NCBI GenBank assembly: GCA_003598085.1 | Contig: QZKU01000039.1 | Coordinates: 1-55,322, forward strand | Reading direction: 5' to 3' | Origin: Candidatus Abyssobacteria bacterium SURF_5 | Lineage (GTDB): Bacteria > Abyssobacteria > SURF-5 | Length of the DNA: 55,322 bases | The notes under the pieces: model-generated | What the model was told of the DNA's origin: nothing | Databases searched by the model: none | Seen by the model: only the letters and a program-made list of their open reading frames with translations | Part shown: piece by piece, positions 12,976 to 49,848 of the stretch | Layout: every line of letters starts with the position of its first letter | Numbering within the stretch: the first letter of the stretch is position 1 | Position numbers and translations under genes: made by a program

Positions 12976-13073
12976 TCCTGTGCGACTAGATTATTCCATC
13001 GACAGAAAGTGATCCCGGCAATAAGCAGAGCCATGCTTGGGCGCGGCATATGGAGAAGGAACTCCATGCTAAC

Positions 13074-13814
13074 ATGAGAAACGTATCGCTGTTCGTTCCG
13101 TGCCTGGTCGATCTCTTCATGCCTGAAGTGGGGGAGGACTGCATTACGCTGCTTCGCCACCTCGATATCCACCCCATTTACCATGCGGAGCAAACATGCT
13201 GCGGACAACCGGCGATCACGGCCGGCTACCGGAAACAGGCAAAAGAGGCTGCTCGCCATTTTATCAGCGTATTCGAGCACGACGAGGCGATCGTTTGTCC
13301 ATCAGGTTCCTGCGTGCATACGGTGCGGCGGCATTACCCGGATCTTTTTGCAGACGAGCCGCGGTGGCGCAGCAGAGCTGAACAGCTCGCGCCGCGGGTG
13401 TACGAGCTTTCACAATACCTTGTCGATGTCCTGGGAGTCGAAGATATCGGCGGAGTGCACGCAGCGAAAGTCGCCTATCACGCTTCATGTCAGCTTCTGC
13501 ACGGTCTGGGTGTGACGGAGCAACCGAAAAAGCTGATTCGATCGGTCGATGGAGCGCAACTGGTGGAGATGCGCGGCTCTGAGAAGTGCTGCGGCTTCGG
13601 CGGCGCATTTGCAGTCGCGTACCCGGACATTTCCGAAGCCATGGTGAGCGAGAAGGTCGCACATTACCTTGAGAGCGGCGCCGACGTTCTTGTTGCCTGC
13701 GACCCGGGATGTCTTCTGAACATCGGCGGCTACCTCAGCCGTCGCCATTCAGACAGGAAAGCTATTCACCTGGCGAGCTTTCTGGCGAATGCGGTAAGGA
13801 ATGGCAAAGTATGA
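13074..13814 (+). CDS. lutA: Lactate utilisation protein A (CCG-domain Fe-S subunit)
   Basis: A 246-residue Fe-S protein of the LutA/YkgE family, one of three parts of the LutABC L-lactate oxidising complex. Two CCG domains are visible: FVPCLVDLF with TCCGQPAITAG and CPSGSCVHT, then YHASCQLLHGLGV with KCCGFGGAFAV. I place the start at ATG 13074, giving MRNVSLFVPC, because family members begin two or three residues before this strand; ATG 13050 is in frame and adds eight residues, and the ribosome site (AGAAGGA, 13054-13060) does not settle it. The stop overlaps the lutB ATG by four bases. Confidence 0.9.
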   Translation: MRNVSLFVPCLVDLFMPEVGEDCITLLRHLDIHPIYHAEQTCCGQPAITAGYRKQAKEAARHFISVFEHDEAIVCPSGSCVHTVRRHYPDLFADEPRWRSRAEQLAPRVYELSQYLVDVLGVEDIGGVHAAKVAYHASCQLLHGLGVTEQPKKLIRSVDGAQLVEMRGSEKCCGFGGAFAVAYPDISEAMVSEKVAHYLESGADVLVACDPGCLLNIGGYLSRRHSDRKAIHLASFLANAVRNGKV

Positions 13815-15238
13815 AAATCAATACCAATGAATTCGTCGAGGTGGCGCAACGGGAGCTGACCAACAAGCGAACCAGAACGCTGCTCGATATGATCTCATCG
13901 GTCGTTGACAACCTGCGGGATTCCGCGATGTCTTCTTTCCCTGATCCCTCAGCCGCTCTCGAATACGGACGGGCGATCCGCGCAGAATCGCTTGCCCGCC
14001 TGCCGGAGCTCCTCGATCAATTCGAAAAGAACGCAGTCGCGCACGGAGCCAGCGTCTTCTGGGCGCGTACTGCAGACGAGGCCAACCAATTCGTGCTCGA
14101 TCTCGCCCGCAAGCGAAACATCAAGTACGTCACCAAAGGCAAATCGATGGTGACCGAAGAGATTGGCCTGAATGACGCTCTCGCAGCCGATGGAATCGAC
14201 GTTTTTGAGGCCGACCTGGGAGAATTCATCGCGCAACTGCTCAAACGACCTCCTTTTCATATCGTCGGGCCCGCCATAAATGTACCAGTAGACGAAATCT
14301 CCGCTTTGTTCCTGAAAAAGGGACTGATCGAACGCGCGACGCAAGACCCCGTCGAACTGGGCGCCGCCGCCAGGCGTTACCTCCGGCAAAAATTCCAGCA
14401 TCTCGAGATGGGGATTACCGGCGTCAATATGGCCGTTGCCGAGACGGGCGCAATTATCAACGTCGAGAACGAGGGCAACATTCGATTTTCGAAGTCGTCT
14501 CCGAAAACGCAGGTGTCATTCATGACGATCGAGAAGGTCGTACCGACGATGCGCGATGCCATGCATCTGCTGCGGCTCCTTTGCCGCAACTGCACGGCAC
14601 AGAAGATATCAGCCTACGTCAGCATGGACAGCGGTCCGAAAAAGCCCGGGGAGATCGATGGCCCGGAGGAGCTCTTCATCGTCATTCTCGATAATGGACG
14701 ATCGGCCATCTACGCCAATGAGAACCTGCGGGAAGCGCTGCGCTGCATTCGTTGCGGAGCATGCATGTACGGGTGCCCGATCTATATGAAAATCGGCGGT
14801 TATCCCTACGGCTGGGCCTATTCGGGGCCGATGGGGCAGGTGGTCAATCCGCTGCTGCTCGGACTGGACAGGACGCAGCACCTGTACCGCGCCTGCACCC
14901 TGTGCGGGAAATGCAAGAGCATCTGCCCGGGCGGGATCGACCATCCGAAGCTGTTTCTGCTGTATCGCTCGATGGATGTCGAAGGAGATGTCCAATTGAA
15001 AGGACAGAGTCGGCCTTGGCTCGAACAAAAAGCCATGAATATTCTGTCATGCGGCGCGCGACGCGCATGGCATTGGAACGCCGGCGTAAAGGGGGCGCGG
15101 CCCGTCGTCAACCTGCATGCCCGCGGCAATGTCATCTCGCAAATGCCGCTTCTAGGTGGCTGGTTCAGGTGCCGCGATTTGCCCGCCGTCGGGCGCAAAA
15201 CTTTCCGGGAACGAATGAAGGAAACCGGCCAATATTAG
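13811..15238 (+). CDS. lutB: Lactate utilisation protein B (4Fe-4S/LUD subunit)
   Basis: A 475-residue subunit of LutABC. The N-terminal two thirds are the LUD-type domain (WARTADEANQFVLDLA, TKGKSMVTEEIGLN, AETGAIINVENEGN). The last third has two ferredoxin-type motifs, CIRCGACMYGCPIY and CTLCGKCKSICPGG, followed by the usual C-terminal domain. The start at 13811 forms an ATGA overlap with lutA and matches the family N-terminus; a frame open upstream to 13709 lies inside lutA and is not used. The complex oxidises L-lactate to pyruvate in the cytosol and hands electrons to a membrane carrier. Confidence 0.94.
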   Translation: MKINTNEFVEVAQRELTNKRTRTLLDMISSVVDNLRDSAMSSFPDPSAALEYGRAIRAESLARLPELLDQFEKNAVAHGASVFWARTADEANQFVLDLARKRNIKYVTKGKSMVTEEIGLNDALAADGIDVFEADLGEFIAQLLKRPPFHIVGPAINVPVDEISALFLKKGLIERATQDPVELGAAARRYLRQKFQHLEMGITGVNMAVAETGAIINVENEGNIRFSKSSPKTQVSFMTIEKVVPTMRDAMHLLRLLCRNCTAQKISAYVSMDSGPKKPGEIDGPEELFIVILDNGRSAIYANENLREALRCIRCGACMYGCPIYMKIGGYPYGWAYSGPMGQVVNPLLLGLDRTQHLYRACTLCGKCKSICPGGIDHPKLFLLYRSMDVEGDVQLKGQSRPWLEQKAMNILSCGARRAWHWNAGVKGARPVVNLHARGNVISQMPLLGGWFRCRDLPAVGRKTFRERMKETGQY

Positions 15239-27188: not shown

Positions 27189-27218
27189 AATATAACACCC
27201 GAAGGGAGCGGCTGTCAA
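27189..27218 (-). promoter_or_regulatory. Sigma-70-type promoter for the hydantoinase-to-PHP operon
   Basis: On the minus strand a perfect TTGACA (27213-27218), 18 bases and TATATT (27189-27194). The expected transcript begins about 80 bases before the ATG at 27100. This separates the operon from the glycyl radical enzyme genes upstream. Confidence 0.65.
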
Positions 27219-27270: not shown

Positions 27271-28167
27271 TCAGGCGGTGCTTTGCCGAAGCAGTGTCAT
27301 CGTTTCCGCTGACGGCGGCTCCACACCTTCAAGCTCGTACGCTTTCCCGAGTTGCTGATACTTCGGCTCGCCGAATCTGTGATATGCCAGCAGTTCGTGT
27401 TCGGCTGAAGGGGCAATTTGCTTGAGGAATCGGCGAATCTTGACGATATCTTCTACCGTGTCGTTGAAGCCGGGAACGACAGGCGTTCGCACGATCAGGT
27501 GTACGTGCGGGAACGTTCGCACAAATCTCTGGAAATTTTCGAGGATCAGCTCGTTGCTGGTCCGCGTCCACGTCCAATGTTTGTCGCCGTCCATCGACTT
27601 GATGTCGAAAAAAACCTGGTCGACGTGCCGACAAACGGCCTCAATATCCCTCCATGGGCAGTAACCGGATGTCTCAAGGGCGGTATCTAATCCCCGGCTG
27701 CGTGCTTTCTCCAGCAACTCGATCGCGAACGCAGCATGTGAAACCGGCTCGCCACCGCTGAAGGTGAGGCCGCCGCCCGACCTCGCATAAAAGGCGCTGT
27801 CCTGCTCGACAACACGGATGATTTCATCCGCGCTCATGCGCTTGCCCATCAATTCCAATGCCTTCGACGGACATGCCTCAACGCATTCGCCGCAGTTGTC
27901 ACACAATACGCGATCGATCCGGGCCTTGCCCTCCTCATCCGCCCGGATTGCCTCATTCTTGCATGCGCGCATGCACAGGCCGCATTCCGCGGCGCCAATG
28001 CATTTCGCTCTCTTGTACGCAAGCTCCGGCCCGTAAGACTGTCCCTCCGGATTTGAGCACCACCTGCAGGATAGGGGACAGCCCTTGAAGAAAACAAGGG
28101 TGCGAATACCTTTCCCGTCGTGTAAGGAAAACTTCTGAATATTAAAGATGAGCCCCGTTTTCATCAC
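27271..28167 (-). CDS. Glycyl radical enzyme activase (radical SAM)
   Basis: A 298-residue activating enzyme that abstracts hydrogen from the glycine of the neighbouring glycyl radical enzyme. The radical-SAM motif is CKGCPLSCRWC, which holds the CxxxCxxC ligands. Between it and the barrel come two ferredoxin-type clusters, CIGAAECGLCMRAC and CDNCGECVEACP, the layout of activases for dehydratase- and decarboxylase-type enzymes rather than for pyruvate formate-lyase. TFSGGEP, the SAM-binding motif, is present. GGAAGGA precedes the ATG. It is 176 bases downstream of the enzyme gene with a stem-loop between them, so its expression may be lower. Confidence 0.93.
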   Translation of the reverse strand: MMKTGLIFNIQKFSLHDGKGIRTLVFFKGCPLSCRWCSNPEGQSYGPELAYKRAKCIGAAECGLCMRACKNEAIRADEEGKARIDRVLCDNCGECVEACPSKALELMGKRMSADEIIRVVEQDSAFYARSGGGLTFSGGEPVSHAAFAIELLEKARSRGLDTALETSGYCPWRDIEAVCRHVDQVFFDIKSMDGDKHWTWTRTSNELILENFQRFVRTFPHVHLIVRTPVVPGFNDTVEDIVKIRRFLKQIAPSAEHELLAYHRFGEPKYQQLGKAYELEGVEPPSAETMTLLRQSTA

Positions 28168-28343: not shown

Positions 28344-30809
28344 CTAGAACGTGTGTTCGGTCCTCGTGATTATCTCATTCTGAAGCTGCGGAGTGAGGTC
28401 CACAAAGTAGGCGCTGTAGCCGGCAACTCGAACGAGCAGGTCGCGGTACTTCTCGGGATTCTTCTGTGCGGCAAGCAATGTCTTTCTGTTGATAATGTTG
28501 AATTGCAGGTGCCACAACTTGAGATCGCATGCGGTCCTGATGATCGACATCAGCTTCCTCGTGCCTTCCGATCCCGCAACCGCCGACGGGCTGATCTTCA
28601 TGTTCAGCAAACGCGCGGCGCGCTCTTTATATGCCGCGCATCTGGTGTTGGCGATCGAGACCAGGCTCGCCGTCGGACCGTTCCGGTCCGACCCCTGCGC
28701 CGGACTCACGCCTTCGGATATCGGCTCGCCGGCTTTGCGCCCGTCGGGTGTTGCGCCGAGAACCGCTCCGAAAGGAACATGCGCCGTGATCGTGACGTAC
28801 CGGATATCCAATTCGCCGCCAAAAGCCGTCTTGTGGCTGCGAGTAAGGTTGATGAACATCTCCTCGATGTCGTGCCCGATTGAGTCGACGTAGGGATCGT
28901 TATTGCCGTATTTGGGCGCGTTCAGGCACATCTGCCGAATTGCTTCTTTACCCTCGAAATTCGTGTCGACCGCATCCAACAATTCCGCCATGGTCAGCTT
29001 TTTGTCGTCGAACACCAGTTTCTTGATTGCCGCCAACGAATCCATCGCCGTTGCAAATCCGAGCGTATCAATGAAGCCGAGATACAGTGCGCCCGGGATC
29101 GGCCCCGAGTGCATATCGATGCATTCCTTCATGCACAGATCGTGAAGCATCGATGACATTGGCGCGGCTATGAACTGGCCCTTCAGCTTGTCGGCCACGT
29201 ATTGTTGGGCGAACGTGTGCTTCATGATATGTTCCGCCTGCCGGCTGAATGCATGCCACAGTTCGTCGTAAGACGAAAAAGAACGCGCGTCCCCGGTTGA
29301 AACGCCGTATCGCTGGTCTCCGAACAACTTGACTCTGCCGTCGTTCAGCGTCATCTCGATGATGGCGCCGACATTGACCCAGGCACAGCCCGTGGTGACC
29401 CCATCGCGGTTCAGCATCTTCGTCTCCGTGCAGCCGGCGATACAATAATCGTTCGCCTCATCGACGGGTGCTCCCTTCGCCAGAAAGAGAGGGATGATTT
29501 CCTCGTCGAAGAACAGCTTTGGAAATCCTGTGCCCTCTTTGATGGTCTCGGCGACCGCGTGCAGGAACGGCTCCGGCGTCCGCGAATGAATTCGTACGGC
29601 AAGATCGGGATAATTCAGCGGGAATTCGCGCTTGGATTGCAGCATGAGATACGACAGCTCGTTGGTAGCGTCTTTGCCGTCCGTGTTCACGCCGCCGAGT
29701 GTCGTTGCCTCCCAGTGAGCATAGCCGTCGGTATACGAGAATGTGCCCGGGGTGGCATAAATTTCCACATTGCGCGCCATTCCGAGCCACAGGCACTCGA
29801 GAAGTTCCATCGCCTGATCCTTCGTCAGACGGCCCTCCTCGATGTCCTTCTCGTAGTAGGGATACAGGTACTGGTCGATGCGGCCATTGCCGACCGTTCC
29901 GCCGATACGCTGCTCCAGCCGCGAAACCGTCTGGATCAGCCACTGCGATTGCACCGCCTCGCGAAATGTGCGTGCCGGATTCTCCGGAACCCATTCGCAC
30001 ACCTCGGCAATTTCCAAAAGTTCCGATTTCCTGATTTTGTTCTTTTCCGCCTTCGCCATCTCGCGGGCCAGCTTCGCATAACGATGAGCGAAATTGACGA
30101 TGGCGTCGCACGTCATGATGACCGCCTGCAAAAACGGGATCTTCTCGACCAAGTTTTTCGGATCGACCGGATCGAGTGAAGAAAGCCGCAACTCGGCCTC
30201 CTGCTTGACCCCCCTGATCCCGCGCGTGAGCGCTTTCTCGTAATCGTGATTCCATGCCAGACAGGAGCGGGCGGTCGCCGTCGCCGTGATGATGCAGTAC
30301 AACTCCACGATTCGCCTCGTCTCTTCCGGGAGCGCATTGATGTATGCGGAATGATAATGCTTCTTCTCCCAGTACGGCTTGAGCTCTTCGTTGATGATCC
30401 GCACGTCGTCTTCCGTGATCATCAGCGAGTCGCCCGGCTGACTCGGCTGAGCCTCCTGCGCAAAGAAACGCTCTTCGAGTTCCGGGAAAAAGACGGCATA
30501 TCGGCCGGGCGGACCGGCGGCGCCGACAATCAGATCATGCTCCTCGATGTGGATCGGCATGTTGTTCAGAATGTGGGCCATCGCCTTGCCCCACCTCAGA
30601 ATGGTCGGCTGACCCTCGGTCTGGCTGAACGATTCGGTCAACAGGCGCGCCCGCTCCAGATTCATGCGGATCGGCTTGTCGCGAAAGCCCTCGAGCATCT
30701 TGTGAATCCGAAACCGCTTCTTCTGGGCCTCAACGTTCACCAGCCCGATCTTCTGACCGCTTTGTATCCTTTCTTCCTGGGGTGATAAAATCTCCGCTCC
30801 TCGTGCCAT
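28344..30809 (-). CDS. Glycyl radical enzyme, dehydratase/decarboxylase-type (substrate unassigned)
   Basis: An 821-residue glycyl radical enzyme. The glycyl motif RVAGYSA places the radical at Gly797, followed by the usual TRTEHTF end. The thiyl cysteine is Cys460 in CIAGCTETK, with Glu462 two residues on. This G-C-x-E arrangement belongs to the eliminase and related branch (glycerol, propanediol or hydroxyproline dehydratases, C-S and C-N lyases), not to pyruvate formate-lyase with its paired cysteines. The middle residue is Thr rather than the Val common in that branch. ATPDGRKAGEPISEG and LGGVNTDGKDATNELSY are also typical. No microcompartment or coenzyme-specific partner is near, so I do not assign a substrate. 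It lies 12 bases after tetR. Confidence 0.92.
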   Translation of the reverse strand: MARGAEILSPQEERIQSGQKIGLVNVEAQKKRFRIHKMLEGFRDKPIRMNLERARLLTESFSQTEGQPTILRWGKAMAHILNNMPIHIEEHDLIVGAAGPPGRYAVFFPELEERFFAQEAQPSQPGDSLMITEDDVRIINEELKPYWEKKHYHSAYINALPEETRRIVELYCIITATATARSCLAWNHDYEKALTRGIRGVKQEAELRLSSLDPVDPKNLVEKIPFLQAVIMTCDAIVNFAHRYAKLAREMAKAEKNKIRKSELLEIAEVCEWVPENPARTFREAVQSQWLIQTVSRLEQRIGGTVGNGRIDQYLYPYYEKDIEEGRLTKDQAMELLECLWLGMARNVEIYATPGTFSYTDGYAHWEATTLGGVNTDGKDATNELSYLMLQSKREFPLNYPDLAVRIHSRTPEPFLHAVAETIKEGTGFPKLFFDEEIIPLFLAKGAPVDEANDYCIAGCTETKMLNRDGVTTGCAWVNVGAIIEMTLNDGRVKLFGDQRYGVSTGDARSFSSYDELWHAFSRQAEHIMKHTFAQQYVADKLKGQFIAAPMSSMLHDLCMKECIDMHSGPIPGALYLGFIDTLGFATAMDSLAAIKKLVFDDKKLTMAELLDAVDTNFEGKEAIRQMCLNAPKYGNNDPYVDSIGHDIEEMFINLTRSHKTAFGGELDIRYVTITAHVPFGAVLGATPDGRKAGEPISEGVSPAQGSDRNGPTASLVSIANTRCAAYKERAARLLNMKISPSAVAGSEGTRKLMSIIRTACDLKLWHLQFNIINRKTLLAAQKNPEKYRDLLVRVAGYSAYFVDLTPQLQNEIITRTEHTF

Positions 30810-30821
30810 GATTCCGCCTCC

Positions 30822-31451
30822 TCATTGGGAATTCGTATTCTTTACGTACTCGAAATACATTTCCAGAGATTTATCCAAATGCTCGTCGAGCGTGACATCA
30901 AACTCTCCGCCATAGTACTCGTGCAAAAGCATCATACCCATGATCTGCGCGAAAAACAGGTTGGATGCATCCTTCGCCCGCAAGTTCCGAACCTCCGCTC
31001 GCTCGGCGCCCTCACGGTAAAAATCGCGGAATACATTTTCCAACTCGCGCCGTTTTGCGTTGAGCCGCGCCCTCAACTCCGGCGATAGGCGGGGCTCCAC
31101 CTGATGGCGTTGAATGAAGTACAGCTCGAAGAAGTTCGGCTTCAACTTGATCATCAACCGCAGTTCTTCAAGAAATGTACGTATCTTGCCTATGGTGTGG
31201 CTGGATTTGGTGACAGCCTCCGCAACTCGCTCGGTCAAAAGGTCGGTGTAGCGCATCAGGATGTTAACATAAATCTGCTCTTTGCTGCTGAAATATTGAT
31301 AGATGGAGGTGCGGCTGAAATCGGCCGCCTCCGCAATATCATTGATGGAGGTATCAGCATACCCCTTCTCCACGAACAATCGCTCGGCAGCATTCAGGAT
31401 CAAATCCATCCTCGCTTGCCGTTCTTGTAAGATTCTGACTCGTCCGGTCAT
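30822..31451 (-). CDS. TetR/AcrR-family regulator of the glycyl radical enzyme genes
   Basis: A 209-residue regulator. The helix-turn-helix is clear: LILNAAERLFVEKGY, TSINDIAEAADFS and SIYQYFSSKEQIYVN. The C-terminal half is an all-helical ligand domain similar to those sensing acyl-CoA or hydrophobic compounds, though no ligand can be named. It is the first gene of a unit with the glycyl radical enzyme (12-base gap). A near-consensus promoter and a palindrome lie just upstream, fitting self-repression released by the substrate of the enzyme. Confidence 0.9.
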   Translation of the reverse strand: MTGRVRILQERQARMDLILNAAERLFVEKGYADTSINDIAEAADFSRTSIYQYFSSKEQIYVNILMRYTDLLTERVAEAVTKSSHTIGKIRTFLEELRLMIKLKPNFFELYFIQRHQVEPRLSPELRARLNAKRRELENVFRDFYREGAERAEVRNLRAKDASNLFFAQIMGMMLLHEYYGGEFDVTLDEHLDKSLEMYFEYVKNTNSQ

Positions 31452-31462
31452 TTCAGACTTTC

Positions 31463-31475
31463 TGACATGGTGTCA
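31463..31475. promoter_or_regulatory. Candidate TetR operator before the glycyl radical enzyme operon
   Basis: TGACATGGTGTCA is a perfect inverted repeat of five bases around a three-base centre. It lies between the expected transcription start (about 31487) and the start codon at 31451. A direct repeat CCGTCAT occurs next to it at 31481-31487 and 31489-31495. Position is the only evidence for its role. Confidence 0.42.
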
Positions 31476-31493
31476 CAATACCGTCATGCCGTC

Positions 31494-31522
31494 ATTTTAC
31501 CACGAGATCAGCCGCCTGTCAA
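31494..31522 (-). promoter_or_regulatory. Sigma-70-type promoter of the tetR-glycyl radical enzyme operon
   Basis: On the minus strand a perfect TTGACA (31517-31522), 17 bases and TAAAAT (31494-31499). It is 43 bases before the regulator start codon. Confidence 0.72.
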
Positions 31523-37525: not shown

Positions 37526-38143
37526 TTAGTGCTTCCGGACGATATCTTTGACTTTCATGAGGCGGGTGATGTTGCCGCGCTCGAGCTCGCTCAGCTTGTT
37601 GCTGATGTACTTGATGGTCTCCTGGAGAGAGGGGATGAGGATATGTTCGAGCGCATTCACGCGGCGGCGCGTGCGTTCAAGTTCGTCAGCGAGCATGGAT
37701 ACGTGTTTTTCGGTCTGCGCCATTCCGATCATGCGCGGCAGCAGAGCTTCGAGCGATGTCAGCGATCTGTCGAGGTCGCCGGTGATGTCAAGAAAGCTGT
37801 ATCCACATTCTCCTCGCGATTCGACTTGAAAATGAGGCACGCGCAGGTTCATGATTGGCTCAATCCTGCTCTTGAGCGTGATTTCATTTTGGGTGAATCT
37901 GAGCGCTTCCTCCATCTCAGGCTGCAGGACTTCGAGCCGGGCGTGAAAGAAAGAACGCATCGCTCTCTGGAGTTCTTCCTCGACTTGTTCGCGCTGCTTG
38001 CGGGCGTCTCCAACCAGCACCATGAACCGGCGCATCAGTTCTTCCTGCTTATCCTTGAGCAGCTTATGGCCGCGCCGGGCAAGCTGGAGCCTGCGTCGCA
38101 GCTTGAGCAGTTCCATGCGGTTGGGGTTGACCCTGAGAATCAT
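37526..38143 (-). CDS. ntpD: V-type ATP synthase/ATPase subunit D
   Basis: A 205-residue central-stalk subunit that turns inside the A3B3 head. It is an antiparallel coiled coil; typical text is [29 protein letters not shown] at the start (residues 12-40) and [24 protein letters not shown] near the end (here described as the conserved ALE-H-ILIP region). Length matches the family. The start overlaps the subunit B stop by four bases. It is the last gene of the operon; I see no clear terminator after it. Confidence 0.95.
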
Positions 38144-39525
38144 TGAGCCTCGACCTTTTGCGGGTAGTACTTGTCGATGTATTCCTGTCGAATTCTTTTG
38201 AGTTCGCTCTTCGGCAGCAGCGTAAGCAGGTTCCAGCCGATGGCGATGGTTTCCTCGATGGTCCTGTTCTCGTCGCCGCCCTGCCTGACGAATTCATCCT
38301 CGAACACATCGGCGAACTTGAAGAATGCCTTGTCTTCCGGCGTGAGAGCGGCCTCGCCAAGGATTACCGCAAGTTCCTGCACTTCTTTTCCGCGCGCGTA
38401 TGCGGCGAAGAGCTGATTCGAAACGTCAGCATGATCTTCGCGCGTCTTGCCTCTGCCGATGCCCTTGTCGCGCAGGCGCGAGAGAGAGGGCAGCACATTG
38501 ATTGGCGGATAGATGCCCCTTCGATGCAGGACGCGATCGAGGATGATCTGCCCTTCGGTTATGTAGCCGGTCAGGTCCGGGATCGGGTGCGTCTTATCGT
38601 CTTCCGGCATCGAAATGACCGGTATCTGCGTGATCGAGCCGGTACTCTGTTTGAGGCGGCCTGCCCGCTCGTATATGGTGGATAAGTCGGTGTACAGGTA
38701 GCCGGGATAGCCGCGCCGGCCGGGCACCTCCTTGCGCGCCGCGGATATCTCGCGCAGAGCTTCGCAGTAGTTGGTCATATCCGTAAGGATTACGAGCACG
38801 TGCATTTTCAGGTCGAACGCGAGATACTCGGCCGCCGTCAAAGCCATTCGCGGCGTCGAGATGCGCTCGATGGCCGGGTCGTCGGCAAGATTGACGAACA
38901 GGACCGCGCGATCGATGGCGCCCGTGCGCTTGAAGTCGGAGATGAAGTAGTCGGATTCCTCGAAGGTGATTCCCATCGCGCCGAACACGACTGCGAAGTG
39001 CTCCTCGGTTCCTCGCACGGTCGCCTGGCGTGCGATCTGCGCCGCCAGCTCGGCATGGGGAAGTCCGAAACCGGAGAAAATCGGCAGCTTTTGCCCGCGC
39101 ACCAGCGTGTTGAGGCCATCGATGGCCGAGATGCCGGTCTGGATGAATTCCGATGGATATGCGCGCGCATACGGATTGATTGGATTCCCGTTGATGTTGA
39201 CACGTCTTTCGGGGATGATCGCCGGGCCGTCGTCGATCGGCCTGCCCATTCCGTCGAACACGCGCCCGAGCAAGTCGGGGGAGAGTCCAAGTTCCAGTCC
39301 ACGCCCCAGGAAACGTACCTTCGAGTCGTGGATGTTGATGCCGCTCGCGCCCTCGAACAGTTGAACAAGCGCGGTATCGCCGGCCACTTCAAGCGTTTTC
39401 CCGCGACGGATCTCACCGCCGGGCATTTCGAGCTCCACCAACTCGTCATATTTCACGCCCGTGGTCTCGCCCACCAGAACCAGCGGGCCAACAATTTCGC
39501 GTATCGTTCGGTACTCTATTACCAT
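38140..39525 (-). CDS. ntpB: V-type ATP synthase/ATPase subunit B
   Basis: A 461-residue regulatory (non-catalytic) head subunit. It has the [12 protein letters not shown] start, the degenerate nucleotide loop [15 protein letters not shown] in place of a Walker A motif, and the [20 protein letters not shown] segment that includes the arginine finger region. Length and order match. One base separates it from subunit A, and it overlaps subunit D, so the head proteins are made together. Confidence 0.97.
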
Positions 39526-39526
39526 C

Positions 39527-41305
39527 TTATCCCTCTTGCTCGGTTCGTTTCGTCAAAGATTGTATCTGCTCTCCAATCCTGCCGCCGAGTTCGTCGAGTC
39601 TGGCGAGTTCGGTCTCGGTCGTATAACGCATGCGGCCGATTTCTTCCTTCACCGGCAAACCGGCGATCTCTTCGATGGCGGCTCCCTGCTCGATGGCCTC
39701 GTCGGCCGCATGGTGGAACCGGATTATGTTCTTCAGCATTTTATATTGTTTCGAAAACGACGCATAACTGTCAATCTCGTGGAATGCATTCTGGTGGAGG
39801 AAATCTTCACGGATCGAGCGTGCCGTCTCGAGCACAAGGCGGTCGGACGGCGAGAGAGCATCCACGCCCACGAGTCTCGCGATCTCCTTCAGATCCGATT
39901 CCTTCTGCAGGAGCGACATCGAATCCAATCGCAGATTCGTCCAGTCCTGCGCAACCTCCTTTTCGAAGAACCCGCGCATATTCTCATGATAGAGAGAATA
40001 ACTGGTGAGCCAATTAATTGCCGGAAAATGGCGCTCGTACGCGAGCTTGTCTTCGAGACTCCAGAACACCTTCACCACTTTCAAAGTAGCCTGCACGACC
40101 GGATCGGAGAGGTCTCCGCCCGGCGGGGAGACGGCGCCGATGGCGCTGATGGCCCCATGGCGAGCGTTGGAGCCAAGGCAGACGACGCGGCCGGCTCGCT
40201 CATAATATTCCGCTATCCGGGTCGGCAGGTAAGCGGGATAGCCTTCCTCGCCGGGCATCTCTTCGAGGCGGCCGGACATTTCCCGCAGCGCTTCGGCCCA
40301 GCGGGAAGTCGAATCCGCCATGATCGCAACGCTGTACCCCATGTCGCGGAAGTATTCCGCCATCGTGATGCCGGTATACATCGATGCCTCGCGCGCGGCC
40401 ACCGGCATGTTCGAAGTATTCGCCACCAGCACCGTCCGCTTCATCAGCGGCTCGCCCGAGCGCGGATCCTTCAGCTCCGGGAACTCCAGAAGCACGTCGG
40501 TCATCTCGTTGCCGCGCTCGCCGCATCCGACGAAAATGACGATCTCGGCATCGGCCCACTTCGCAAGCTGGTGTTGCACGACCGTCTTGCCGGCGCCGAA
40601 CGGGCCGGGCACGCACGCGGTGCCTCCTTTGCCGATAGGGAAGAAGGCATCGATGACGCGCTGCCCCGTGATCAGCGGGATATTCGGCATCAACTTTTCC
40701 TTGTATGGCCGCGGCGAACGGACCGGCCAACGCTGCATCATCGTCAGTTGATGGGTCTTTCCATTAACCTTCAGCTCGGCCACCACATCGGTGATGGTGA
40801 ACTGTCCGCTTTCGATAGCCGAAACCTCGCCTTTCAGGCCTGGCGGGACCATGATTCGGTGCTCGACCAAGGTGGTTTCCTGAACCGTGCCGATGATGTC
40901 GCCGGCCGACACCGTTTGTCCTACCGTGACGGCTGCCTTGAAATCCCATTTCTTGTCGCGGTCGAGTCCCGGCACGGAGATCCCGCGCGTGATCAGGCTA
41001 CCGGCCAGGGACATGATCTTGTCGAGTGGACGCTGAATGCCGTCGTAAATCGACTCGATCATTCCCGGCCCGAGCTCGACGCTCAACGCCTGTCCGGTCG
41101 TTTCGACGGGTTCGCCCGGCCCGAGCCCCTGCGTATCCTCATAAACCTGAATAGAAGCCCTGTCTCCGCGGAGTTCGATGATTTCGCCGACCAGATTCTT
41201 CTCGCTCACGTGCACGACGTCGTACATCTTCGCGTTGGACATTCCCTCGGCGATCACGAGCGGACCGGAAACCTTAATGATTGTTCCCTTGGCTGTTTGC
41301 TTCAT
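39527..41305 (-). CDS. ntpA: V-type ATP synthase/ATPase catalytic subunit A
   Basis: The 592-residue catalytic subunit. Walker A is [12 protein letters not shown], and the long non-homologous insert typical of V/A-type A subunits lies before it (about residues 110-190). Walker B is in [18 protein letters not shown], with [20 protein letters not shown] after it. GGAGG lies seven bases before the ATG. A gap of 113 bases separates it from subunit F, the only sizeable gap in the operon, and a 15-codon frame ends over this start codon. Confidence 0.97.
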
Positions 41306-41349
41306 CCCGATTCCTCCACCTCTATGAGGAAATTCATTTCTTCTTCCAT
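41302..41349 (-). CDS. Micro-ORF coupled to the V-type ATPase A subunit start (15 residues)
   Basis: ATG 41349 opens [15 protein letters not shown], whose TGA overlaps the start codon of subunit A. A weak ribosome site (CAGGA) precedes it. It fills part of the only large gap in the operon and could couple translation of subunit A. It is very acidic and too short to judge; it may be chance. Confidence 0.25.
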
Positions 41350-41418
41350 GTCCTGCAAGATCAAAATCCGTCTATAAACGCCCCCAAAAATCAATACCTA
41401 CAGGATTAACCCTTTCCC

Positions 41419-41727
41419 TTACATTAATTCAGAACCCATAGCCTTTCTGACGGATGTGCGAATCATTTGGGCGGCGACGCCCCGGCTTCCGGTAACTGCG
41501 GGAATAACGGCGAACGTTGGGATCGCTTTTTCCGTGAATTCATCTATTCGCTCTCTTGTCGCCTCATATACGTCTTCTGTGACGAATATAATTCGAAACG
41601 GTTTCTGTGAAACCTCGGTAACAAGGCGCATGGGCGAGGCGTGCTCATCGGAAAAGAATACATCGGCTCCGAGCGCGGCAAACGCCCAAATCGAATCGCG
41701 CGGCCCTATGAAAGCTATCTCAGACAT
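41419..41727 (-). CDS. ntpF: V-type ATP synthase/ATPase subunit F
   Basis: A 102-residue central-stalk subunit that binds subunit D. The family start IAFIGPRDSIWAFAALG and the ITEDVYEATRE-like stretch (FVTEDVYEATRERID) are present, as is the IPAVTGSRGVAAQMIRTSVRKAMG end. It overlaps the subunit C gene by eight bases. In V-type enzymes this subunit helps regulate coupling. Confidence 0.92.
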   Translation of the reverse strand: MSEIAFIGPRDSIWAFAALGADVFFSDEHASPMRLVTEVSQKPFRIIFVTEDVYEATRERIDEFTEKAIPTFAVIPAVTGSRGVAAQMIRTSVRKAMGSELM

Positions 41728-42721
41728 ACAGGAACCTCACGCGTTCCTCGATTTCATTTCGCGCCATTCCAATCATCTTGCTCTTTATCACGGTGCGAAG
41801 AAACTTCCCGTCTGATTCTTTCCTCAAAAGGTAATAGATCAGGGGAGCGATGCTGAAAAGCGCGTTGCGCATCTGATAAAACCGGTTGAGGAAATAATTA
41901 TCGATGGCGAGCTCGAGTCGCCAGAATGATCTGTCTTCCGGCCACCTGCTGAGGCCTTCGGACAGCACCCTCCGATCCTCGCTTCCCCTGTCCAGGTGCG
42001 TGAGGAACATGCTGATCTGCTCGTCGAGGGAGTGGAGGAAAAAGTCAATAGTGTAGCTCCCGCCAGGAATGAAGGATGCGTTTAGAACGTCCCGATCCTC
42101 TGCAAATTCTTTTATCCGAATAAATGTCTTGATATTGACAAAATCGATATGCTTCCGGAACAGATCGATTACGATCTCATTCCCGACTTCTCGAGCCCGC
42201 TCGATGAGATGCATCCACATCGCGCGGTCGCAGATACGGCTGATCTCCTCCAGCTTCTGCGTCTTCTCATATGCGGCCACCGCTTGAAGTGCCGTGTCGC
42301 GGATGTAATCGGGTACAAAACGGTATGCATTCTCGCTGACCGTGGCTGAAAGCTTTTCAAGAGCATACGTCCCGAGGTCGATGATCGATCCGTTGGCGGG
42401 AACTTCCAACAGATGCGCTTTCAGCAGCGCCTTGAGATTGTGGAAATCATACCGCTTGCGCAGCAGTTCGATCACTTCTTTTTCCGGGCAGATGTGGTGG
42501 AGCAGGTCGTACGTTTTTCCCAGCTCGATGATCAGCCCGCGATCGAAGTCGGCCGGATCCTCGATACTCGCGAAGCTTTGAGCATAATCCGTTTCGCTCA
42601 GCATTCTTAGTATCTCGCGCGGCTCTGCCGCGAGCACTCTTGACGCGAAAGCTTTGTCGATCAACCTGGTGCTGAGAACGCTGATTCGCGCAACTGCATA
42701 TGTGTACCGGTAGTCATCCAT
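41720..42721 (-). CDS. ntpC: V-type ATP synthase/ATPase subunit C (AC39/d type)
   Basis: A 333-residue funnel-shaped subunit that joins the central stalk to the membrane rotor. It has three repeated helical units, with DYRYTYAVARISVLSTRLI at the start and MIGMARNEIEERVRFLYV at the end. ATG 42721 is preferred; GTG 42736 is in frame and adds five residues. The start lies within the end of the subunit E gene. Family call rests on length, end motifs and operon place. Confidence 0.92.
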   Translation of the reverse strand: MDDYRYTYAVARISVLSTRLIDKAFASRVLAAEPREILRMLSETDYAQSFASIEDPADFDRGLIIELGKTYDLLHHICPEKEVIELLRKRYDFHNLKALLKAHLLEVPANGSIIDLGTYALEKLSATVSENAYRFVPDYIRDTALQAVAAYEKTQKLEEISRICDRAMWMHLIERAREVGNEIVIDLFRKHIDFVNIKTFIRIKEFAEDRDVLNASFIPGGSYTIDFFLHSLDEQISMFLTHLDRGSEDRRVLSEGLSRWPEDRSFWRLELAIDNYFLNRFYQMRNALFSIAPLIYYLLRKESDGKFLRTVIKSKMIGMARNEIEERVRFLYV

Positions 42722-43322
42722 GCTGTTTGGTTTCACCGAACAAAACCCGCGCCACCTGAGGCTCCAGCATGTCGCGGTTTGACTCGATCAGGCTTGAGAG
42801 CGTCAAATTGGTCTCCCGATTGCCTTCCCGCAATACGCATCCGCCGGAAAAAGCGCCTGCCTCTGCGCTCAGCCGCAGATGCCCTCGCTCAGGGCCCAAC
42901 GCATCATTCAAACTCCTGAGAAATGCTGCGGTAAAAAGATCCTTCTCTCGTTCAGCGGGAACAATTTCCTCATTTCCCGATTCGACTGCGTTAAGGATCA
43001 GCGGCTTCAGGAACGCCAGATACTCCTCGGGTGGGAGGTTCAGAATTTTCTTCCTCGCCTCTTCAATGCTCTCATCCACTAGCCGCTTCTTCACTGCGAG
43101 GATTTCCTTGCGCTGATCGAGTCCGGCCAGAATCCTTATTCTCTCAGCATGACTTTTTGCCCGCCGCTCGGCCTCTCGCATCAGCGTTGCTTTCAGGTCA
43201 TCGGCCTCTCGGCGCGCTTTTTCCCTGATCGATTGCGCCTCCGCACGAGCGAGCGACAACAGAGAATCGGCTTCGGCGCGCGCCTCCTCATTGATTTTCT
43301 TAAGAATATCTTCCAGTGCCAT
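42714..43322 (-). CDS. ntpE: V-type ATP synthase/ATPase subunit E
   Basis: A 202-residue peripheral-stalk subunit. The first 90 residues are a charged, alanine-rich coiled coil (INEEARAEADSLLSLARAEAQ region), and the rest is a globular domain that holds the head, with the typical SLIESNRDMLEPQVARVLF end. It forms heterodimers with the small G/H subunit at the start of the operon. It begins 15 bases after the K gene. Confidence 0.93.
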   Translation of the reverse strand: MALEDILKKINEEARAEADSLLSLARAEAQSIREKARREADDLKATLMREAERRAKSHAERIRILAGLDQRKEILAVKKRLVDESIEEARKKILNLPPEEYLAFLKPLILNAVESGNEEIVPAEREKDLFTAAFLRSLNDALGPERGHLRLSAEAGAFSGGCVLREGNRETNLTLSSLIESNRDMLEPQVARVLFGETKQHG

Positions 43323-43337
43323 GATTGATCATGCGCC

Positions 43338-43853
<516 letters not shown>

Positions 43854-43870
43854 TCAAACCGCATCACATG

Positions 43871-45859
43871 CTACTCCAATTCCGAACGAACTACCGTATG
43901 CTCCCGCACTTCCGCAAACGGCTCAAACGGCCGGCCTCCGCCGGTGAAGAACTTCGAGAAGAATTCCAAGTACTGGAGCCTGAGCGAATGGACGAACCCG
44001 CCCAGCGCGTTGATCACAATATTAAACGTGTGGCCGAAGACCAGGATGAAAATAGCCATCACGATCCCGATCCCGTACGGGATCGGCAGCACGAGCGAGG
44101 CGATGTCATTTACCGTCATCGCCAGAAAGGCCCCCGACAAGCCCAGCGCCATCAGCCGCGCGTACGACAACGTATCGCCGAAAAAGCCGAGAGTATCCCG
44201 CAACACATTCAGCGTGCCCATCAGCGGCATAAAATAAATCTTGCTCTTTCGGCCGCGTCCAAGCACCAACGGTCCGACAAAGACCAGAGCCGTCGTTTTC
44301 GCCGCCGCCAGCGCCTGCTCGCTCACCTTTCCTCCAAACAAGTACTTGTACACCAGCGGGGCCGCCGCCACGATCACGAAAATCCATAACCCCTCGTCAA
44401 AAACCGCCGAGAAATAGTCGCGGTCATGGATATCCTTTGCTATCTTCAGGATCAGCCCGAAAATGATCTGGCACAGACCGATAAGGAACGTCAGATACAG
44501 GAACTGCAGCACCTGCCGTGTCGGCTCAAAAATCATCATGCTCCTGAGAAACGTCGGGAGCTTGTCCGAAGGAATGGCGAAAACGCCGCCCGTAAAAATT
44601 CCCACGATAAAGGTGGCAAGACCTCCCCACGCAATTATCTGAAGAAGCAACCGAGCCGAACCCTTGGGACGCAGTTTCTTCAGCCCGATAAGCGAAGCGA
44701 CGGTGAGGACAATGCCATAACCCGCATCTCCCATGCAGATTCCAAAGAAAAAGATAAAAAAAGGCGCCAAAAAAGGAGTCGGGTCAAACTCGGAGTATTG
44801 GGGGCGGCCATACAACTCGGTGATCAGAGAGAAGGGTTTTATGGCCGGCGGATTCTTCAATAAAATCGGTACCACATCACGCGGCCCCGGGTCCGAACAT
44901 CTTACCTCAATATCCCGCGTCAGCTCGTTCAGGCGACGCTTGAGCCTTTCTTCTTCCGCCGCAAGAACCCAGCCGTTAATTGCGAATGTCCGCTGCGTGA
45001 AAAGGAAATTGCGCTGCACCTTCAGCGTGTGCGTTTCCTGCAAATAATGATCGTAAAGCAGAAGAAGTTCGTTCCGTACTGGAAGAAATTCCTCGACTAT
45101 CCGCTCCTTTATTCTCTGGTTCCGCTCGTGAAGTTCCTTTATCTGCTCTCGCAAACGGTCCCGGATTTCCTGCGGCGCACCCGTCAACCCCGAAAATTGT
45201 ACGGACCTCCATGCGAACTTCCGCATGATGGGCGTATATAAATCCTCAAGCTCCTTGGCGTAGATCAGAACCATGGAGACAGAGGACCGGGATATCTCCA
45301 CCACTTCAATGTGATGGAGCGGCGACGCCTCCGCCAATTCACGGGCAAACGCCGGGTACGTCCGCGCGTCGCAGATGCCCAATGAGATGCGGGTGCAGCG
45401 CGTATCCTGAATCCGCTCCAACTGCCATCGAAGGGGCAGCCACAGGCTGATCTCCTCGATCAGCAATCCCTTTCTTGCGATCTGGTTCTCATTCTCTTGA
45501 AGCTCCTTTTCAAGCAGCCCGCACTCGCCGGAGAATCTCTCCAGCTCAAACTCCGCCACAATTGCATCTGCCTCATGCGGCGTGAAAATGGGCCTGCTCT
45601 TCAGGAGCGATGGGGGCAGCGAGCGCTTCGGCAGGTATTTCATCCCGATATCCAGGCAGTGCCGGAGCGTCGAAAGTTTTTCTTCGGCCTGATTAATCGA
45701 AATTTCCAGAAAGGAAGGAAGGTTGTTCTCCCACTCGGGGTAAAGCTCGCTGACGTTGGATATGTGGACAGCGGCTGTCTTGCGAAGCTCCGTCAATACC
45801 TCGTCGCGCCACTCACCATGCGCCAGTATTTCCAGTTTTCTGACCTTGCTTACGGCCAT
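43871..45859 (-). CDS. ntpI: V-type ATP synthase/ATPase subunit I (a-type membrane subunit)
   Basis: A 662-residue stator. The N-terminal 330 residues are a soluble, helical arm; the C-terminal half has seven or eight transmembrane segments. FFFGICMGDAGYGIVL is a strong family marker, and LSYARLMALGLSGAFLA holds the essential arginine that faces the rotor. The end is HSLRLQYLEFFSKFFTGGGRPFEPF, again typical. It starts one base after the G/H-type gene. Confidence 0.96.
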   Translation of the reverse strand: MAVSKVRKLEILAHGEWRDEVLTELRKTAAVHISNVSELYPEWENNLPSFLEISINQAEEKLSTLRHCLDIGMKYLPKRSLPPSLLKSRPIFTPHEADAIVAEFELERFSGECGLLEKELQENENQIARKGLLIEEISLWLPLRWQLERIQDTRCTRISLGICDARTYPAFARELAEASPLHHIEVVEISRSSVSMVLIYAKELEDLYTPIMRKFAWRSVQFSGLTGAPQEIRDRLREQIKELHERNQRIKERIVEEFLPVRNELLLLYDHYLQETHTLKVQRNFLFTQRTFAINGWVLAAEEERLKRRLNELTRDIEVRCSDPGPRDVVPILLKNPPAIKPFSLITELYGRPQYSEFDPTPFLAPFFIFFFGICMGDAGYGIVLTVASLIGLKKLRPKGSARLLLQIIAWGGLATFIVGIFTGGVFAIPSDKLPTFLRSMMIFEPTRQVLQFLYLTFLIGLCQIIFGLILKIAKDIHDRDYFSAVFDEGLWIFVIVAAAPLVYKYLFGGKVSEQALAAAKTTALVFVGPLVLGRGRKSKIYFMPLMGTLNVLRDTLGFFGDTLSYARLMALGLSGAFLAMTVNDIASLVLPIPYGIGIVMAIFILVFGHTFNIVINALGGFVHSLRLQYLEFFSKFFTGGGRPFEPFAEVREHTVVRSELE

Positions 45860-46171
45860 TTACTTTCTTCCGGCGATCGTATCCACGATGAGTTGAACCG
45901 CGCGCGACCAATTTTTCCTCGCCGATGCCAGCAGGGCCTCCGTCTGCTTCTTATTTTCTTCGCGCTGTTTGTCTACGCTCTCGCGCGCTTGCTGCTCGTA
46001 TTGTACGAGGAGTTCGGCTTCTGCCTGGCGGCATTCTTGCCTCATGGATTCAATCAGTTTCTTGGCTTCTTCACGGGCCGCGCGTATCAGCTCATCGGAC
46101 TCGTGTCGAGCGGCGGCAATTAACCTGTCGCTTTCACTTTCAACACGTCTGATGTCTTCTATAAGTTCCAT
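45860..46171 (-). CDS. V-type ATPase peripheral-stalk subunit G/H
   Basis: A 103-residue, almost wholly coiled-coil protein rich in Glu, Arg, Ala and Gln (DRLIAAARHESDELIRAAR). Such proteins (AhaH, NtpG-like) pair with subunit E to form the peripheral stalk. It is the first gene of the operon, the standard place, and ends exactly where subunit I begins. The assignment rests on composition, size and position because coiled coils carry no unique motif. Confidence 0.85.
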   Translation of the reverse strand: MELIEDIRRVESESDRLIAAARHESDELIRAAREEAKKLIESMRQECRQAEAELLVQYEQQARESVDKQREENKKQTEALLASARKNWSRAVQLIVDTIAGRK

Positions 46172-46215
46172 GATTCATTCGATTTCCATAGAGAGGGCAG
46201 GGCACCAGTCGAATT

Positions 46216-46244
46216 ACATTAGCATACAGGAAAGGTAAAGTCAA
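46216..46244 (-). promoter_or_regulatory. Promoter candidate for the V-type ATPase operon
   Basis: On the minus strand TTGACT (46239-46244), 17 bases and TAATGT (46216-46221) with a TG extension. The minus-10 is weak. It is placed 45 bases before the first gene, in the 191-base gap after mnhG, so the ATPase genes may also be read through from the antiporter operon. Confidence 0.4.
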
Positions 46245-46362
46245 GATGCTCAAATGGGTCGCAGCGCCGGATTTATCATTTAATCCTTGAGAAGTCTTCC
46301 CTGTAACTCACACTTCATTGATCTGCGAGTCCTTTCATGCGGGCAAAAGGGGCCTTTAACCT

Positions 46363-46719
46363 TCATTCCTTGGGTCCAGTCCGACTATACCCTCCATTTT
46401 GCCCACCGCCGAGCTCGTCTATGACCGACCGCTCCCAAAGGGGAACACCTACATGATATGCGGCCCTGCTGAGCAAATGAGCGGCTACCGGTACCGTTAT
46501 CAGCAGGAAAGCGATTGTTGCAAACGAAAGCATGGCAACATCGATGCGTCCAAAATGAACCGCGAGCGAGAACAATGCGAAGCCGGCCCCCAGCGTCGAA
46601 GCTTTCGTGGAAGCCGAGATTCGCATATATAAATCCGGAAAACGGATGATCCCCAGGCCGCTGATCAACATGAGACAAGCCCCGATAAACATGAAAACCG
46701 CCGACATCGCCTGCTGCAT
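46363..46719 (-). CDS. mnhG: Mrp/Mnh cation:proton antiporter subunit G
   Basis: A 118-residue membrane subunit with three transmembrane helices. LISGLGIIRFPDLYMRISASTKASTLGAG, seen at residues 19-47, is the family's core. ATG 46719 follows the mnhF stop by two bases and is chosen over a much longer open frame that runs antisense-free but through mnhF in another frame. The C-terminal tail (GGGQNGGYSRTGPKE) is hydrophilic. It ends the antiporter operon. Confidence 0.93.
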   Translation of the reverse strand: MQQAMSAVFMFIGACLMLISGLGIIRFPDLYMRISASTKASTLGAGFALFSLAVHFGRIDVAMLSFATIAFLLITVPVAAHLLSRAAYHVGVPLWERSVIDELGGGQNGGYSRTGPKE

Positions 46720-46721
46720 TC

Positions 46722-46988
46722 TTAAATTCCCCGTCGGATATGATAGCTGAAGAATACGGTTGTCAAGAAGGCGATGAGCGCCATAACCACAGCAACATGC
46801 ACAAACACATGATTGTTCGCCGCTACCGAATAAGCTGCGATGAATCCTATGGCTATTACACCCATCAGATCGAGTGCCACTACCCGGTCGGGCAGCGTTG
46901 GACCCAGCAAAAGCCGAATAAAACAAAATACCAACCCCAAAGCCATCAGCGAGAGAGAAATAAGATTCACAACCTGCAAAACATTCAT
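46722..46988 (-). CDS. mnhF: Mrp/Mnh cation:proton antiporter subunit F
   Basis: An 88-residue protein with three transmembrane helices and the conserved GPTLPDRVVALDLM loop. Length and sequence match MrpF. Its start overlaps the mnhE stop by four bases (ATGA). Required for assembly of the whole complex in studied bacteria. Confidence 0.95.
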   Translation of the reverse strand: MNVLQVVNLISLSLMALGLVFCFIRLLLGPTLPDRVVALDLMGVIAIGFIAAYSVAANNHVFVHVAVVMALIAFLTTVFFSYHIRRGI

Positions 46989-47458
46989 CGGAAAACCTCC
47001 AGCAGACGCCTTTCAAAGCCTTGCTTCACGTGACGCCTGAATCCCTCGACGCTGTCGATGTAGAGGGCATGCACATATAATACGCGCCGATCGTCGGATA
47101 CCTCGATGCTCAAGGTGCCGGGCGTCAGCGTGATCAGATTCGCAAGGAAAACTATCTCCGCATCTGTTCTTGCATCCAATGGTATTGCCACTATTCCCGG
47201 CGACATCCGGTGCCGCGGCGTCAGGATGTCGTATGTCACCAGGGCGCTCGCCTTTGTGAGCTCCCAAACGAAGAACAGGATGAAACCGACCGCCTGCGGA
47301 ATCTTGGAAAAATAGGGTGACTTGGTCTTCTTCTTCTGCGTCAGCCGCAAGACAAGATACCCTAAGACGAAACCGGCCATAAAATTTGCTGCCCCGAACC
47401 GACCGGTTAATGCCATCCAAGCCAGGGCCAGCAAGATGTTGAACAGAAACAAGATCAT
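46985..47458 (-). CDS. mnhE: Mrp/Mnh cation:proton antiporter subunit E
   Basis: A 157-residue subunit: two N-terminal membrane helices, then a soluble cytoplasmic domain. Family markers are FFVWELTKASALVTYDIL and the LTPGTLSIEVSDD stretch. It starts three bases after mnhD and overlaps mnhF. Confidence 0.95.
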   Translation of the reverse strand: MILFLFNILLALAWMALTGRFGAANFMAGFVLGYLVLRLTQKKKTKSPYFSKIPQAVGFILFFVWELTKASALVTYDILTPRHRMSPGIVAIPLDARTDAEIVFLANLITLTPGTLSIEVSDDRRVLYVHALYIDSVEGFRRHVKQGFERRLLEVFR

Positions 47459-47461
47459 TTT

Positions 47462-48961
47462 TCACCTGTCCTCCCGAAGGACCGCCTCAATGTAACCGCT
47501 GGAATCGAGCAACTGTTCGGCGGCTCTTGATGAAAGCGCAAGAAACGGCTGTGTCGCGAGCCCGATAAGTATCGTGATGAGAGCGAGCAGGATGATCGGA
47601 GAATACATCACAAATATCGAGGCCGGCCTCAAAGGCTGCGAAGCCTGCTGCGGCTGCGGTTCCGATTTCCAGAAGGCCTCATTCCATATCTTTGTCATCG
47701 AATACAAAGTCAGAAAGCCTACGGCAAGCGCGACGACCACGATGGCATAGTCTTCGGTCTCCACTCCCGCTTGCAACAGAATGAGCTTTGCCCAAAATCC
47801 CGAGAGCGGCGGCGCCCCCGCAAGCGAAAATGCGGGTATCAGGAATAATGCGCTGAGGCCGGGCGAAATCCGCGATAGCGAACCCAGGCTCTTCAGATCA
47901 TATGTCCCTCTCATCCTATGCACCACACCGCTCACCAGAAACAGGTTTGTCTTCACAACTATGTGATGAAAAATGTAGAAGACCGATCCTGTTAACCCGA
48001 GGTGAGTGAACAGGCCGAGCCCCATAATCATGTATCCGATCTGGCTCACAATGTGGAACGAGAGGATGCGCCTGAATTCGTTGTGGGCCACTGCGCCAAG
48101 CACGCCGCTGGCCATCGTCAGGCCGGATATGATCAGGATCAGCCGATGCGTCACGCCGACCTCCTGAACAAAGAGCAATGTGAACACCCGAACAAGCGCG
48201 TACACCCCCACCTTGGTCAGCAATCCCGCAAATAAGGCGGATACCGCCGGCGGCGGCGTATGATAAGAGGCGGGCAACCAAAAAAACAGCGGAAAAATCG
48301 CAGCTTTGATCCCAAAAGCCAGGAGAAACAGCATTGCCACGGTGGTGATTAGCCCGGGCGACGTCACGGTCGGCAATTGGCGGGCGAGGTCCGCCATATT
48401 CAGCGTGCCCGCCATCCCATAGAGAATGCCTACCCCGCTCAAAAACAGCGCGGAAGACATAAGATTAAGCGTAACATATTTCAACGCTCCTTCCAGTTGG
48501 GCTCGTTCTCCCCCCAGTTCCATCAGAACAAACGAGGAAATGAGCATTACCTCGAACCAGACATACATGTTGAACATATCGCCCGTCAGGAACGAGCCGC
48601 ACACCCCCATCAAGAGAACGTGGAGCAACGGGTAATAACCAAACGACTCCCTCGGCTGATCCATGAGTGACAGCGAGTAGATCGCCACGGAGAAGCCGAT
48701 CAGTCCCGCCATCACCACCATAATCGAAGCAAACAGGTCCGCCACCAGCGTAATGCCGAAGGGAGCCGGCCACCCTCCCATCTGCACCGCCTGAATGCCG
48801 TCTTTCCGGACAACCAACAGAAGCAAGATTGAAGAGCCGAAAAGCGCAGTCGCTCCGATAACGTTTACTATCCGCTGAAGGCGGCGTCTGGCCCAAAACA
48901 GAAGAAGGACGATTGCCGTAACAAACGGAATCAGCAGGGGCGCAATCAAAAACAGTTTCAT
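47462..48961 (-). CDS. mnhD: Mrp/Mnh cation:proton antiporter subunit D
   Basis: A 499-residue membrane protein homologous to the proton-pumping NuoL/M/N subunits of complex I. The hallmark is [36 protein letters not shown], with the lysines of the ion path, around residues 214-249. [16 protein letters not shown] holds the key glutamate of an early helix. ATG 48961 is used; the longer open frame upstream runs into mnhC. About fourteen transmembrane segments are expected. Confidence 0.95.
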
Positions 48962-48981
48962 GACCGAGCTATTGCCCTTTT

Positions 48982-49335
48982 TCAGCGCAACACGTCGGTG
49001 TTGCGCAGTTGATCCAGGTCTGATGTGCCGGTTGCCTGATGCGTGCGCCGGATGAGAACGACCAGGAAAGCCTGCATTCCGAAACCGATAACAATCGCCG
49101 TCAAGATGAGCGCCTGCGGAACCGGGTCCGCATACGGTGTTAAAGGTTCGGTCATTCCCAACGGCACGATCGGAGAATTGCCGCGCACCAGGCCTCCCAT
49201 GAGGAAAATAAGGAGATTTGCTCCGTGGCTGAGAAGCGCAAGACCAAGAAACAATTTCACGATGCTGCGCCGCATCATCAGGTAAAGCCCGGCTGCATAC
49301 AGACCCCCGATTATCAACGGCAGAACAATCCCCAT
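48982..49335 (-). CDS. mnhC: Mrp/Mnh cation:proton antiporter subunit C
   Basis: A 117-residue subunit homologous to NuoK, with three transmembrane helices. Core text is [20 protein letters not shown] and [22 protein letters not shown], with the buried acidic residues replaced in the way usual for MrpC. ATG 49335 follows the mnhB stop by two bases; a longer frame enters mnhB and is not used. Confidence 0.95.
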
Positions 49336-49337
49336 TT

Positions 49338-49778: not shown

Positions 49779-49848
49779 TCGATTTCTCCCTTAGTTTCGC
49801 TTCAAAAGGCCGCTGACCAATCTCGCCGATGCCCAGGTTGGCGCGATG

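Follow-up and report, generated by a model that had tools for sequence, protein, structure and literature searches.

The window, by which we mean the whole 55,322-nucleotide stretch analysed here, carries a gene for a glycyl radical enzyme (GRE) and raises the question of which substrate this enzyme acts on in its Abyssobacteria host. Sulfonate-splitting GREs control the anaerobic conversion of taurine, isethionate, and sulfoquinovose products to sulfite and sulfide. An earlier note had placed the gene at 28344-30809 and suggested a possibly undescribed branch without an assigned substrate. The gene was borne out on the minus strand, which that note had left unspecified (Table 1), while stops interrupt the plus-strand reading of the same positions. 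Its product has the features of a GRE eliminase, namely the GRE fold, a glycyl motif, a Cys-x-Glu motif, and an adjacent activase, with Pfam scores of 627 bits for PFL-like and 105 bits for Gly_radical. The motifs read A-G-C460-T-E462 and A-G797-Y-S-A-Y. Cys460, Glu462, and Gly797 align with Cys468, Glu470, and Gly805 of Bilophila wadsworthia IslA, in agreement with the positions that the note had given. Five relatives are 75–81% identical over the full length, with differences concentrated at third codon positions (0.54, with 0.16 and 0.09 at the other two). The gene is therefore real and evolves under purifying selection, with a signal that chance comes nowhere near explaining.

Table 1. Features of the GRE locus, in positions of the window
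Feature	Position	Strand	Remarks
Predicted promoter of the hydantoinase block, TTGACA-18-TATATT	27189..27218	(-)	Separate; the block lies outside the GRE unit
GRE activase, radical SAM	27271..28167	(-)	C-x3-C-x2-C motif and ferredoxin-type cysteines
GRE, 821 aa	28344..30809	(-)	Single open frame, 821 codons; AGGAGG ribosome-binding site precedes ATG
Codon Gly797	28419..28421	(-)	Glycyl radical site; equals IslA Gly805
Codon Arg670, kept	28800..28802	(-)	Equals IslA Arg678, sulfonate ligand
Codons Cys460-Thr461-Glu462	29424..29432	(-)	Thiyl cysteine and general base by homology (IslA Cys468/Glu470)
Codon Ala185, replaces ligand Gln193 of IslA	30255..30257	(-)	From the alignment; IslA Q193A inactive (PMC8473560)
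Codon Arg181, kept	30267..30269	(-)	Equals IslA Arg189, sulfonate ligand (PMC8473560)
TetR-family regulator	30822..31451	(-)	12 bases upstream of the GRE
Operator-like site TGACnnTATTnTGACAnnnTGTCA	31463..31486	(-)	Directly after the -10 hexamer
Predicted promoter TTGACA-17-TAAAAT, TG before the second hexamer	31494..31522	(-)	11/12 match; upstream of the TetR gene

Sequence and predicted-structure searches both ranked IslA/IseG and HpsG first. This puts the enzyme in the sulfonate-lyase superclade, whose enzymes release sulfite, and the tree gives the same placement. This close kinship had been overlooked in the earlier note. By sequence, the nearest solved proteins were 5YMR (Desulfovibrio vulgaris IseG/IslA), 6LON (B. 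wadsworthia HpsG), and 7KQ3 (B. wadsworthia IslA) at 899–942 bits, followed by choline lyase at 596 bits. The predicted structure (pLDDT 87.2, pTM 0.89) retrieved the same three at E values of 1e-76 to 1e-80, with the next family at 1e-61. In the tree, the window GRE and its five relatives form one clade (support 100/100) beside the IslA/HpsG crown and outside it, and the branch uniting this clade with the crown has support of 97/96. That branch, together with arginines at positions 189 and 678 and with Trp374 (IslA numbering), places the enzyme within the broadly defined IslA/HpsG superclade. By the features tested it is neither IslA nor HpsG, since it falls outside the clades of both and has not kept all three sulfonate ligands. 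A search of viral contigs returned no relative.

The automatic name needs to be read with care. The window GRE scores 1177 bits against the NCBIfam equivalog NF048011, "(2S)-3-sulfopropanediol dehydratase", and passes its cut-off of 1000. This model marks the superclade rather than an activity and cannot separate IslA from HpsG, because D. vulgaris IslA (1554 bits), HpsG (1509 bits), and a GRE with Asn-Asn-Lys at the ligand positions (L033, 1072 bits) all pass. We therefore did not take the name at face value. NF048011 covers IslA, HpsG, and several clades of unassigned function with a single name and will mislead surveys of the sulfur cycle.

Several other GREs were met in these searches. L033 (1440-11496), whose neighbours include an HpaB-like protein and a PorA-like oxidoreductase subunit, belongs with L078 (5964-8510) to a second basal clade that has Asn-Asn-Lys at the sulfonate-ligand positions. 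In a Desulfosporosinus sp. UBA5188 contig (L032, 1726-7668), two GREs flank one activase, and the second combines Arg-Asn-Arg with GCVE. The host genome encodes six further GREs (L002, L003, L004, L005, L006, and L020), none of which reaches any NCBIfam equivalog cut-off.

The residues of the pocket distinguish the enzyme from its crown relatives. In B. wadsworthia IslA the sulfonate ligands are Arg189, Gln193, and Arg678, which are conserved in the IslA cluster and lacking in other GREs (PMC8473560, PMC6453916), and the Q193A mutant is inactive (PMC8473560). The window GRE and all five clade mates instead read Arg, Ala, Arg: the Gln193 column of the alignment holds Ala in 6/6 clade members and Gln in 50/50 crown members. 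In IslA numbering, the window GRE also has Gly replacing Thr or Ala at position 312 and Asn replacing Val at position 195; the latter is its Asn187 and is new in the clade. The window GRE keeps Trp374, Val680, Cys468, Glu470, and Gly805, and none of the six members departs from the catalytic residues, Trp366, or either arginine. The changes from Gln193 to Ala and from Thr/Ala312 to Gly would be expected to leave more space in the pocket than IslA or HpsG has.

Together with the separate clade, the loss of Gln193 now carries the view of a branch without an assigned substrate. That conclusion of the earlier note stands on these grounds and not on its own, which treated the Thr of the GCTE motif as unusual. 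In 50 crown relatives, the position between Cys and Glu is occupied by Thr (30), Ala (18), Ser (1), or Ile (1), and the sequences with Thr include D. vulgaris IslA (5YMR) and HpsG (6LON). The motif is ordinary in the superclade, and we discarded it as a mark of novelty. The note had also named what would count against its view, membership of a characterised isofunctional group without any change among the pocket residues; the clade lies beside the crown and has one of the three sulfonate ligands changed.

It is unlikely that the enzyme is a plain isethionate lyase or HpsG in a divergent host, with another residue taking over the role of Gln193. Such an enzyme would pass NF048011, as this one does, and the window GRE shares Ile at position 682 with HpsG; the clade-specific Asn187, two residues past Ala185, could compensate for the missing ligand. 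The window GRE nevertheless falls outside the crown that contains both enzymes, its Arg-Gln-Arg triad is broken, and a model passed by both IslA and L033 does not identify it. A basal relative (L030, 8290-22141) retains Arg-Gln-Arg and is placed just outside the six-member clade with weak support (84/49). Because this outlying sequence has the full triad, the comparison suggests that the clade probably lost the Gln, with the order of events not firm. An aldehyde dehydrogenase on one side and two MttB-type methyltransferases on the other flank the L030 GRE, a crotonyl-CoA carboxylase/reductase lies farther along, and the GRE possibly belongs to a quaternary-amine or related pathway.

The GRE is part of a compact arrangement that recurs elsewhere. 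The order TetR-GRE-activase is found again in L022, L023, and L080, and by tblastn in L075, and the TetR orthologues upstream of the GRE in L022, L023, and L080 are 69–73% identical. The activase passes the cut-off of TIGR02494 and falls just under that of NF048010 (425.7 bits, cut-off 430). The predicted promoter of the TetR gene could be aligned in L022, L080, L023, and L075. The operator-like site TGACnnTATTnTGACAnnnTGTCA occurs without mismatch in five loci (the window, L022, L023, L075, and L080) and with four mismatches in L107. The pattern was built from the exact-match sites, so that these matches arise by construction and the informative results are its conservation between loci and its absence elsewhere. 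By chance, 0.03 occurrences would be expected in the window at three mismatches. The sequences show a conserved three-gene unit, made up of TetR regulator, GRE, and activase, that shares a single predicted promoter with an operator-like site. A search of three Abyssobacteria genomes for a second close copy found only unrelated sites with at least three mismatches, near the control count, and with no second close site the operator yielded no regulon or partner genes. In genome G001, a second GRE copy (L084) is preceded by a TetR gene that differs from those of the unit, and it lacks both the operator-like site and an adjacent activase. In UBA5616, a TetR-GRE pair of this kind is divided between two contigs (L107, 4028-6217; L072, 27-986), and the reading frame is interrupted in L107.

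The surroundings of the unit were then considered for clues to the substrate. Among the genes scanned in the window, we found no microcompartment, sulfite, trimethylamine, or propionyl-CoA genes, as the earlier note had reported, and near the GRE no sulfonate transporter, reductase, or sulfite gene. A hydantoinase and a carbon-nitrogen hydrolase lie downstream in the same direction, starting 116 bases past the activase, and this adjacency is what would favour a cooperation of the GRE with the two enzymes in the breakdown of a cyclic ureide. We consider such a role highly improbable, given that the block of hydantoinase, carbon-nitrogen hydrolase, lipoyl synthase, and two aminotransferases is conserved on other contigs in genomes G001 and G002 without the GRE (in G001 no carbon-nitrogen hydrolase was found), and that a strong promoter-like site precedes it. 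With synteny kept without the GRE and its own promoter-like site, the block is an independent unit that gives no clue to the substrate, and the hydantoinase was set aside as a pathway partner. A literature search for a GRE joined with a hydantoinase or dihydropyrimidinase returned nothing relevant. Elsewhere in the window, genes with CCG, LUD, and Fer4 domains (13050-15238) resemble those for LutAB-type lactate-utilisation proteins, and a V-type ATPase cluster adjoins Mrp/Mbh-type antiporter subunits (37526-52137).

Sulfur genes give a mixed picture. In L080, a true sulfoacetaldehyde acetyltransferase (Xsc; 771 bits, cut-off 676) is encoded ~3 kb from the GRE. It is lacking in L023, the closest relative of L080, despite similar neighbours, and no true Xsc was found in three Abyssobacteria genomes. 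AprA was over its cut-off in all three of these genomes and DsrA was absent from them, which agrees with the description of the Abyssobacteria lineage (PMC6121073). L080 (1309-9240) and L023 share a class III aminotransferase, an SDR, and ThDP enzymes near the GRE, and in L080 a PfaA-like polyketide synthase, judged by eye, lies downstream of the unit. Related genes form a separate operon (L126, 7870-12866; L108, 2481-7537) conserved in the host genome and in G001. There, orthologues of the aminotransferase accompany a ThDP gene away from the GRE, whereas no close orthologue is present in G002. We therefore do not claim an aminotransferase, SDR, and ThDP pathway for the GRE.

Our preferred reading, held tentatively and rated at a little under even, is that the window GRE is a 1,2-eliminase of the IslA/HpsG superclade that acts on an anionic hydroxy-compound of larger size, with a sulfonate as the most likely candidate, and would release sulfite. 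By homology, the adjacent activase would generate a radical on Gly797 that is passed to Cys460. The Cys460 thiyl would abstract hydrogen from the hydroxyl-bearing carbon, Glu462 would deprotonate that hydroxyl, and the ketyl intermediate would expel the group on the next carbon. Arg181 and Arg670 would hold the anionic group of the substrate. Given the extra space expected in the pocket, the enzyme probably takes a hydroxy-sulfonate of greater size than isethionate, or else dihydroxypropanesulfonate in another binding mode. Its C-S bond would then be cleaved and sulfite would leave. In the Abyssobacteria host the sulfite could feed APS reductase. TetR, the product of the first gene, probably represses the unit through the site over its start.

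The sulfonate assignment draws on IslA and HpsG as closest relatives, on the invariant catalytic residues, Trp366, and arginines, on Xsc in L080, and on AprA. Set against it are the loss of a Gln whose mutation to Ala inactivates IslA, the lack of sulfonate genes nearby, and the lack of Xsc in the Abyssobacteria genomes and in L023. The two arginines would suit a carboxylate or phosphonate also, and AprA may serve sulfate metabolism or sulfite of other origin. The main rival keeps the same eliminase chemistry with a non-sulfonate anion (a hydroxy-carboxylate, dihydroxy-acid, or phosphonate) and water or another leaving group, so that the Gln loss marks a change of anion. We regard this as possible but rather doubtful. 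It would account for the uniform replacement of Gln by Ala across the clade with Asn in place of Val195 beside it, and for a window without sulfonate genes, and the class III aminotransferase, SDR, and acetolactate-synthase-like neighbours in L080 and L023 need not mean sulfur metabolism. Against it, both arginines, Trp366, and the whole scaffold remain those of sulfonate lyases, and Xsc is encoded near the GRE in L080.

A neighbouring clade with changed sulfonate ligands marks one of two things: an additional specificity among sulfonates, or a move of the scaffold to another anion. It is quite plausible, if short of an even chance, that an undescribed GRE eliminase specificity is found here, in a clade of deep-subsurface and other uncultivated anaerobes whose sulfonate-lyase scaffold has turned to a different, larger anion under its own TetR and operator. 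If the enzyme releases sulfite, this would suggest that Abyssobacteria, where AprA is present and DsrA absent, draw sulfite from sulfonates.

Compared with known systems, the window GRE shares the GRE eliminase fold and Cys-x-Glu motif with HpfG-type sulfopropanediol dehydratase (NF048009), CutC (TIGR04394), and HypD (NF043068), but scores 488, 567, and 574 bits against their cut-offs of 1000, 1050, and 1100. It is 48–51% identical to IslA/IseG (5YMR, 7KQ3), with the same fold, the same Cys/Glu/Gly machinery, and Trp374, Arg189, and Arg678. Unlike these enzymes, it has Ala for Gln193, Gly for Thr312, and Ile for Phe682 and belongs to a separate clade, and the window holds neither TRAP transporter nor microcompartment genes. 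From HpsG (6LON) it differs in having Ala for Gln193 and Gly for Ala312, in lying outside the HpsG clade, and in its NF048011 score (1177 vs 1509 bits), while sharing 48% identity, the GCTE motif, Ile at position 682, and both arginines.
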